DNA of 64,000 nt, taken from positions 1 through 64,000 of the forward strand of contig CALUFC010000010.1 of assembly GCA_944319885.1 (NCBI GenBank), read 5' to 3'. Of this stretch, positions 13,566 through 40,800 are shown piece after piece. Positions within the stretch are counted from its first letter, which is position 1, and the number at the start of each line of letters is the position of its first letter. Position numbers and translations under genes: made by a program. The notes under the pieces were generated by a model. It made no database searches, was not told where the DNA came from, and saw nothing but the letters and a program-made list of their open reading frames with translations. Source of the DNA: an uncultured Coriobacteriaceae bacterium (lineage in GTDB: Bacteria; Actinomycetota; Coriobacteriia; Coriobacteriales; Coriobacteriaceae).

Positions 13566-13599
13566 GCGCTTCGTTTCTCGTTGAACGAAATGCTTTTTT
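13566..13599 (+). terminator. probable terminator after proC
   Basis: The hairpin GCGCTTCGTT (13566-13575) with AACGAAATGC (13584-13593) contains a perfect 6-bp core plus a partly mismatched base. TTTTTT follows at 13594-13599, about 50 bases past the proC stop. Confidence 0.65.
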
Positions 13600-15539
<1,940 letters not shown>

Positions 15540-38607: not shown

Positions 38608-38690
38608 TGCGCGCTGCAGGATAGGGTAGAACAAGTGCGACTGCGCATAGGGTGCGGTAGCAGGTTATGAGACAGCAAGGGAGCTTGATC

Positions 38691-39374
38691 ATGGGAATGC
38701 TCGACAGGTTTGCCGACATCGTTAAGGCCAATGTCAACGATTTGCTCGATCGCGCCGAGGATCCGGCGAAGATGGTCGATCAGTATCTACGCGATCTATC
38801 CGAATCGCTCGCCGAGATAAAACAAGAGACTGCCGGCGTTATGGCCGAGGAGACGCGTACCAAGCGCCTCGTGGAGGAGAATGCCGCCGAGATCGCCAAG
38901 TACGACGATCTTGCGCGCCAGGCGCTGAAGGCGGGCAACGAGGATGATGCGCGCGCCTTCCTTGCCAAGAAGCAGCAACTCGTCGCGAAAGGCGAAAGCT
39001 TGGCGCAGGCTCATGCTGCCGCCCACGAGAATGCATCCAAGATGCGCGAGATGCACGATAAGCTCGTCAACGATATCGAGACGCTCAAGGGCCGTCGTGA
39101 GGCGGTGAAAGCAAAGGTAGCTGTCGCGAAGACGCAGGATAAGGTGAACGATATCACCTCGGCAGGCGATCGCGCTGAAGGTGCCATGAGCGCGTTCGAC
39201 CGCATGGAGGCAAAGGCCGACGAGATGCTTGATCGCTCGAATGCTATGAGCGAGCTCAATGCTCGCGCGGTCGATACGACGGCCGAGCTCGAGAAGAAGT
39301 ACACCGAGGCAGGCTCCACCGCCGCCGTCGACGATGAGCTTGCGAAACTGAAGGCCGAGATGGGTATCTCATAA
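38691..39374 (+). CDS. PspA/IM30 (Vipp1-like) family protein
   Basis: A 227-residue, almost wholly coiled-coil protein of the PspA/IM30 (ESCRT-III-like) family that polymerises on membranes under envelope stress. It opens with MGMLDRFADIVKANVNDLLD, the amphipathic helix plus family signature, and has EDPAKMVDQYLRDLSESLAE and RAEGAMSAFDRMEAKADEML. AAGGGAG fits ATG 38691. It follows the Gly/Phe/Arg-repeat membrane protein by 83 bases, so the two may act together. No pspF-type regulator or PspC protein is nearby. Confidence 0.9.
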   Translation: MGMLDRFADIVKANVNDLLDRAEDPAKMVDQYLRDLSESLAEIKQETAGVMAEETRTKRLVEENAAEIAKYDDLARQALKAGNEDDARAFLAKKQQLVAKGESLAQAHAAAHENASKMREMHDKLVNDIETLKGRREAVKAKVAVAKTQDKVNDITSAGDRAEGAMSAFDRMEAKADEMLDRSNAMSELNARAVDTTAELEKKYTEAGSTAAVDDELAKLKAEMGIS

Positions 39375-39445: not shown

Positions 39446-39465
39446 GAAGTTTTTCTTCTCTTCGT

Positions 39466-39673
39466 CATTATTTTGGCCAGTTAGTTCAGATTCCGGAGCG
39501 CATAAGGCGTGAATGGCATCTCGCTCGTCGAAAAAACGATATGACAACTCGAATAATATGCATATATACCTAAGTAATATGTCCTCATGCAATCACTTAT
39601 CCGATCATGATCGGCAACCGAGTGAATTCGGAGGGCAAAACGCTCCGGAATCTGAACTAACTGGCAATAATGA
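39466..39673. mobile_element. MITE-like element with 25-bp terminal inverted repeats
   Basis: A perfect 25-bp inverted repeat lies at 39476-39500 and 39641-39665, starting GCCAGTTAGTTCAGATT and enclosing 140 bases. Outside a 3-base gap on the left the match goes on: TCATTATT (39465-39472) and AATAATGA (39666-39673). The interior is strikingly AT-rich (18 G+C of 60 bases at 39541-39600) in a GC-rich chromosome and includes the palindrome CCGATCATGATCGG (39601-39614). No transposase or convincing ORF is inside, and no clear target-site duplication flanks it. Size and structure fit a miniature inverted-repeat element; a structured RNA is the alternative. Confidence 0.55.
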
Positions 39674-39721
39674 TGGCATTGCCCGAAAAAATGCATGCGG
39701 CTGCTGCCAAACCATATAAAA
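39674..39721. other. short spacer after MITE-like element
   Basis: AT-rich sequence with no gene. It ends in ATATAAAA, which on the minus strand is the T-run of the nitroreductase terminator. Confidence 0.4.
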
Positions 39722-39811: not shown

Positions 39812-40345
39812 TTAGCTCAGGCTGAGGAATTGCTCGCGTTTGATACAGCGCGCTTCTCGTGTTTCGGAATCGGCGATCGTGTCGGCAGGGTAACCTACGG
39901 TGAGCATCGACACAGGGAGAATGCCCTCTGGCATATTGAATTCCTTTCGCGCGATCTCGGGGTCGAACATGCAGACCCAGCAGGTGCCAAGGCCGAGCTC
40001 CGTCGCCTGCATCATCATGTGATCGACGACGATCGAGGTATCGATAAGCGAGGAGTTCATCTCGTCGTCCCGACGAACCCACGCATCGCCGGTGATGGCG
40101 CAGGCGATGAGTACAACGGGTGCCCCGAAAACGCTGCCTTTGCGTTCGAAACGATAGGCAGCTTTGGCCGCCTTTGCGCGCAGCTCGGGCGTATCGCAGA
40201 CGATGACGCGCGTGGGATGGTTGTTATGAGCGGAGGGCGCGATACGGCCCGCTTCGAGGATGAGATCGAGGCGATCTTGCTCGATCGGTTGATCTTCATA
40301 TGCGCGGCAGGAATAGCGTTTCCGGGCAAGGTCGATGAATGACAT
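39812..40345 (-). CDS. nitroreductase family protein
   Basis: A 177-residue FMN-dependent oxidoreductase of the short nitroreductase type. The N-terminus FIDLARKRYSCRAYEDQPIE is characteristic; AGRIAPSAHNNHPTRVIVCD contacts FMN, and LGLGTCWVCMFDPEIARKEF and VGYPAD close the fold. Family members reduce nitroaromatics, quinones or flavins; the natural substrate is unknown. ATG 40345 has GGGAG five bases upstream, and earlier in-frame ATGs lack family similarity. It is monocistronic, between rnpB and its own terminator. Confidence 0.9.
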   Translation of the reverse strand: MSFIDLARKRYSCRAYEDQPIEQDRLDLILEAGRIAPSAHNNHPTRVIVCDTPELRAKAAKAAYRFERKGSVFGAPVVLIACAITGDAWVRRDDEMNSSLIDTSIVVDHMMMQATELGLGTCWVCMFDPEIARKEFNMPEGILPVSMLTVGYPADTIADSETREARCIKREQFLSLS

Positions 40346-40431
40346 GGCAGCTCCCATCACGAAGTCGGCATTGCTGAGAACATTGTACCCGTCGCGATGG
40401 TGAGCGCGCGTTGCCGGTGAGGAGCAAAAAC

Positions 40432-40800
<369 letters not shown>

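Follow-up and report, generated by a model that had tools for sequence, protein, structure and literature searches.

Here, we describe a short intergenic element of an uncultured Coriobacteriaceae bacterium that is probably a dispersed, non-autonomous recognition site belonging to one of a set of nuclease/paired-arm repeat systems found throughout the Coriobacteriia, similar to REPIN-RAYT systems and built around a different enzyme. The element lies in a stretch of 64,000 nucleotides, hereafter called the window, and it represents one (family A) of several arm families in the same genome. A broader proposition is that these systems make up an undescribed class of bacterial repeats, in which a Vsr/EDxHD-like nuclease spreads its own two-arm, helically phased site, with several co-diverging lineages per genome and a wide distribution in the Coriobacteriia; on this proposition our judgement is evenly balanced, and the literature searched yielded no description of such elements. 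An abundant gene family is now linked to specific DNA sites, and each nuclease gains a readable candidate target. Its specificity thereby becomes directly testable, and natural collections in which a nuclease is matched to its long bipartite site are on offer. The proposed systems, if real, would show the REPIN-RAYT way of life for a second time, with an unrelated enzyme, and would bear on the persistence of such repeat populations in small genomes.

The original prediction of perfect 25-bp inverted ends around 140 AT-rich bases was confirmed. Positions 39476-39500 (+ strand) and 39641-39665 (- strand) form a perfect 25-bp inverted repeat (GCCAGTTAGTTCAGATTCCGGAGCG), in which each arm is the exact inverted match of the other and carries an 18-bp core (TTAGTTCAGATTCCGGAG), located at 39481-39498 in the left arm and at 39643-39660 in the right arm. 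The interior (39501-39640, 140 bp) has 41% G+C compared with 62% genome-wide, and a direct count gives 18 G+C at 39541-39600. The predicted continuation of the pairing outside the 25-bp repeat was also borne out, as it picks up again past a 3-base interruption to give extended arms of 35 nt that are 91% complementary. The repeat is more than chance: the window contains exactly two occurrences of the 25-bp arm where 0.02 would be expected, and the inverted pair scores 27.5, compared with a single pair of score 13 when the entire 263 kb of intergenic DNA was base-shuffled once. Further out, the left zone (39450-39475) has a T-tract (39450-39454) together with A/T blocks that keep helical phase with the arm, based on counts over 38 family A arms, and is mirrored by the right zone (39666-39691) with its A-tract at 39686-39691. 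The element sits between two convergent genes that lie outside it, with a terminator-like hairpin on either side. Both are open frames named by sequence alone, a PspA-like gene to the left (38667-39374, + strand), with an orthologue in 9/9 genomes of the genus, and a nitroreductase-like gene to the right (39812-40435, - strand). In agreement with the original prediction, no transposase is present locally and no target duplication was seen.

Searching for the family A arm in related genomes, as had been proposed, returned 10 dispersed intergenic inverted pairs in the own genome (G000) and 9 in a sister species (G003), with eight sites common to both. The G003 loci match the record CALUIM01 (uncultured Coriobacteriaceae), which was also the only source of family A pairs in a search of the GTDB collection, and no pair within 2 mismatches was found in the 63 genomes searched among the other members of the bacterial family. 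Without exception, family A arms occur as inverted pairs. The comparison with the sister species found the site of the window copy empty in G003, which means that presence varies; neither a target duplication nor a clean empty site was found for this copy in the sister species. Searches of phages, plasmids and viral contigs gave nothing relevant to the elements. Being present in many copies and missing from this site in the sister species, the element does not behave as a single-copy sequence held at the same place in all relatives with compensatory changes along its stem. Its multi-copy nature and the linked gene described below, located elsewhere in the genome, are things that a single window could not show.

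The arms are strikingly uniform. The 18-bp core is identical in 38/38 family A arms (19 copies from the two species), and at the eight shared sites all 288 of the 288 core positions compared are identical between G000 and G003. The interiors at these sites are about 66% identical and almost gap-free, with their length held to within 1 bp. Interior lengths in family A are 118-120, 128-129, 140-141 or 150-151 bp with nothing between, and the window copy falls into one of these four classes, which represent whole helical turns. Taken over families A, B and E, interior lengths show a phase of 10.5-10.75 bp, which none of 4000 uniform nulls equalled in strength. Among the 38 arms, TGTCA and A/T blocks near -27, -18 and -7 recur beyond the core, in a rhythm that would correspond to the helical-turn spacing typical of bent DNA. 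In many family A copies, the palindrome TCTAT-n5-ATAGA occupies the centre and its distances from the arms are quantised; it is not clearly present in the window copy, and at L018/L028 the total was kept at 140 bp though the palindrome had shifted by one turn. At each site, strong constraint acts on the arms and spacing of family A.

The original prediction had also named a gene for a structured RNA as a possible identity, and the folded strand of the window element does form a strong predicted hairpin (z = -9.7 against shuffles), a value that adds nothing beyond the inverted repeat because it restates the same repeat. On the other side, the core sequence is invariant and not compensated, base pairing at the variable arm positions does not exceed that of shuffled partners in families C, D and E (and does so slightly in A and B), the length steps fit duplex DNA, and Rfam gave no match for the window region or the scanned loci of other families. 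Given arms without stem-like covariation and the lack of an Rfam match, we consider a functional RNA hardly credible. Another reading is that of invertible DNA segments, such as phase-variable promoters, worked by a site-specific recombinase. The phasing would suit synapsis on short DNA, and at 1/8 shared sites (L016/L023) the interior is inverted relative to the flanks; at the remaining 7/8, however, it is not, several copies lie between convergent genes, a serine recombinase motif scan gave no hit, and G000 has only two tyrosine recombinases, both with counterparts throughout the genus. We regard this reading as very improbable, and a tyrosine recombinase was rejected as the mobiliser on the last of these grounds. 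A promoter or regulon function was likewise dismissed, as the gene contexts are inconsistent.

A de novo inverted-repeat scan covering 1.93 Mb of the own genome found at least six further families, with different arms and the same plan as family A. Family B (arm CATATGCGAAGTGTGGA) has 11 copies with interiors of 100-101 or 110-112 bp, family C (arm GCAAAATTGACGGTAGTGCACG) has 7 copies with interiors of 100-101 bp, family D (arm AAAATGTGGAGCACTTTTT) has 7 copies with interiors of 91-92 bp, and family E (arm TTTTTCAGNTNNNCAATGGTTTT) has 34 arm hits and interiors of 90 or 99-101 bp. One family E element lies in the window itself at 13595-13731, with left arm TTTTTCAGGTATGCAATGGTTTG, right arm TAAACCATTGCGTGCTTGCATTT, inner GAGTAG/CTAC motifs and an interior of 91 bp, in phase with the remaining E copies. 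Family F consists of arrays of TGGTCA-N-GGACCTATGGGT units at 52 bp spacing with inverted partners (C5:46837-47103 (L174), C2:39029-39274, C23:10812-11026 and C4:24827-25094 (L166)), and families G and H were also found by the scan. Family I is made up of TTGTCTGTGCAG units (C1:425253, C3:34202, C3:86567, C7:34044 and C7:35573), which are always 103 bp overall. Exactly 69 bp separate their outer arms, and a direct repeat lies on the inside, 22 bp away; a linked nuclease gene was not found for this family. Near mid-interval, a central YNGCAGG-type motif is present in 16/34 copies of families B-E against 0.39 expected. The copies of families A-D are intergenic with mixed orientations of the neighbouring genes, including several between convergent genes, and inspection of the arms of families A-E revealed no REP-type hairpin within an arm.

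Self-comparison of the own gene set picked out a paralogue cluster of nuclease-like genes, which was noticed because its members adjoin elements, and a profile of six members found a seventh beside a family A element. All seven have, within 1 kb, arms of exactly one family among A-G, and each family is used once; the nearest arm is 25-354 bp away, the gene beside one of the family F arrays being at 354 bp. The pairing of genes and families was recognised post hoc. Multiplied together, the single fractions give 10^-16.7, a value that has to be discounted on this account; with nine families to choose from for each gene, we estimate the discount at about 10^7 or less. The linkage could instead reflect regulation of the nuclease gene by the neighbouring sites. 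In the G000 assembly, the nuclease genes of families A and B are broken (frameshift, in-frame stop; C1:187109-187997 and C1:363612-364697) and their arms are intact. The frameshift in the family A gene beside intact sites counts against a nuclease-repeat relationship; in the sister species, the same gene (L064:4362-5480) is an intact frame of 373 codons, about 140 bp from its element.

The linked gene encodes a putative Vsr/EDxHD-like nuclease. In Pfam, the Vsr-like DUF559 and MTES_1575 families match 10/23 and 7/23 members, respectively, with matches of single members mostly below the curated cut-offs, and the proteins do not match Y1_Tnp. NCBIfam contained no relevant model, and PADLOC only a marginal one. 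A profile of the 23 members searched against the PDB had its best match in the catalytic region of 3r3p (E = 7e-4, a weak match that Pfam supports), which we take, from the entry name 'Mobile intron protein', to be I-Bth0305I. The genes described here are free-standing and chromosomal and stand by repeated intergenic sites, unlike I-Bth0305I, which is part of a phage group I intron and has a single gene as its homing target. According to a review, I-Bth0305I is a homing endonuclease of the EDxHD type and dimerises on a target nearly 60 bp long (PMC3943268). Residue D277 is invariant, and E288 and R306 are near-invariant among the nuclease-like proteins; a single-sequence AlphaFold model was unusable (pLDDT 36). 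Matches to the gene family occur in 129/196 sampled Coriobacteriia genomes, with up to 14 per genome. We know of no link of the DUF559 or MTES_1575 families to dispersed repeats.

The association extends well beyond the genome of the window. An inverted pair was found nearby at 46/55 nuclease loci, which come mostly from other genomes and are partly orthologous and hence not all independent, compared with 9/42 control loci (Fisher p = 6e-10), and several of the nine positive control loci are elements already known. Nuclease loci are often flanked on both sides by pairs with the same arm. Across genera, arm similarity tracks nuclease similarity (Mantel r = 0.53, 0/5000), and in genus g3 a relative of the family A nuclease lies between arms (GGACAGTTAGTTCAGATACGTAT) whose relationship to the family A arms is recognisable. 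From these systems it was predicted that the arm beside one nuclease of another, distant family, in genome G179, should recur as dispersed pairs. The search gave 17 hits, including 8 dispersed pairs at 133-134 bp, whereas two further genomes and a reversed control gave none. Five G179 solo copies were read, of which four have clearly related interiors (56-79% identity) and the fifth is 53% identical with one of them, and the homology ends about 29 bp beyond the arms. On the strength of the related interiors and of this boundary outside the arms, the solo copies were most likely made by copying of a unit of about 210 bp. Copying is not visible within family A, because the interiors of different family A sites in one genome are unrelated.

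These observations also bear on the possibility that the host has domesticated the elements as architectural or regulatory sites, with the Vsr-like protein or a partner using the paired arms to form loops that organise the chromosome, serve repair or regulate its own gene, and with the sites no longer mobile. The conservation of arms and spacing at each of the eight shared sites, the phased A/T tracts, which suggest bent or wrapped DNA, and the many genomes in which nuclease genes have sites on both sides would all suit such a role. Close species nevertheless differ in their sites, gene contexts are mixed, many independent arm families coexist, and the shared interiors of the G179 solo copies imply that these were copied; domestication is accordingly an unlikely explanation, if one worth keeping in mind.

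The closest known parallel is the REPIN-RAYT system, in which dispersed inverted doublets persist vertically and each repeat type has its own single-copy enzyme, with co-evolution of arm and enzyme (Bertels and Rainey 2011, PMC3116915). The elements described here are likewise conserved inverted doublets dispersed in intergenic DNA, and each repeat type adjoins its own single-copy enzyme gene. In contrast, RAYT is a Y1/HUH transposase and the enzyme here is Vsr/EDxHD-like by sequence, REP arms are short imperfect palindromes and the present arms are not palindromic, and arm spacing here amounts to whole helical turns over 90-150 bp. As enzyme and arm type differ, these systems work like REPIN-RAYT but are not REPIN-RAYT. 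Quantised lengths have a precedent in the internal eliminated sequences of Paramecium, whose lengths follow steps of about 10 bp and have been read as the sign of a DNA loop in a transpososome-like complex (PMC3464196). Those sequences also combine conserved ends with a variable interior; unlike family A, they are eukaryotic and are excised by a domesticated piggyBac transposase.

The MITE-like identity given in the original prediction has held only in part. MITEs such as Correia/NEMIS, ERIC and RUP are short, intergenic and non-coding with inverted ends, and family A agrees with them in its terminal inverted repeats, its lack of coding capacity and its multi-copy, dispersed nature. Their interiors, however, are common to the copies and their ends are of the transposase type, while a shared interior is absent in family A and present in most G179 solo copies. 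For a g3 solo copy, the g3 genomes searched revealed no target duplication and no clean empty site, and no transposase family linked to the elements was found in searches that did not cover the DDE families systematically. An ordinary family of MITEs depending on some DDE-type transposon, dispersed between genes with the nuclease genes as chance neighbours or cargo, would explain the inverted, non-coding copies. It fits poorly with seven nuclease genes out of seven adjoining seven different families, with arms that co-diverge with the nuclease, with family A interiors that are unrelated between sites yet phased in length, and with the target duplication not being seen at the sites examined, and we therefore hold it to be improbable.

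In the nuclease-based reading that we favour, each system would pair one nuclease gene with an inverted-arm site of about 150-240 bp, copies of which lie next to the gene and often on both sides of it; further copies would be scattered in intergenic DNA. Two or more nuclease subunits may bind both inverted arms, and possibly the centre, on the same face of the helix, and the stretch between the bound arms would be looped or wrapped. Cleavage at the looped complex, followed by break repair, could rarely copy the site to new places, and the same repair might occasionally invert the interior. Otherwise the sites would be passed on vertically, like REPINs, with selection on arms and spacing. The copying step is indicated by sequence relationships in one genome, and the chemistry is inferred.

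Some further observations concern the placement of the elements. Five of the ten family A copies are on the contig with dnaA and parS (C1:31k, 152k, 188k, 200k and 334k), where they span from 87 kb to the left to 216 kb to the right of dnaA/parS (C1:116-122k); an origin-proximal bias is possible, with the caveat that the other contigs could not be ordered. In the window, a bacterial RNase P class A RNA (40435-40797, - strand) adjoins the nitroreductase-like gene. In another species (G008), the same intergenic space beside pspA holds a different inverted pair, TAGCCAAAACGGACCG..TTTGCACGATT (L072:2353-2506), which suggests that this space is a favoured landing place.
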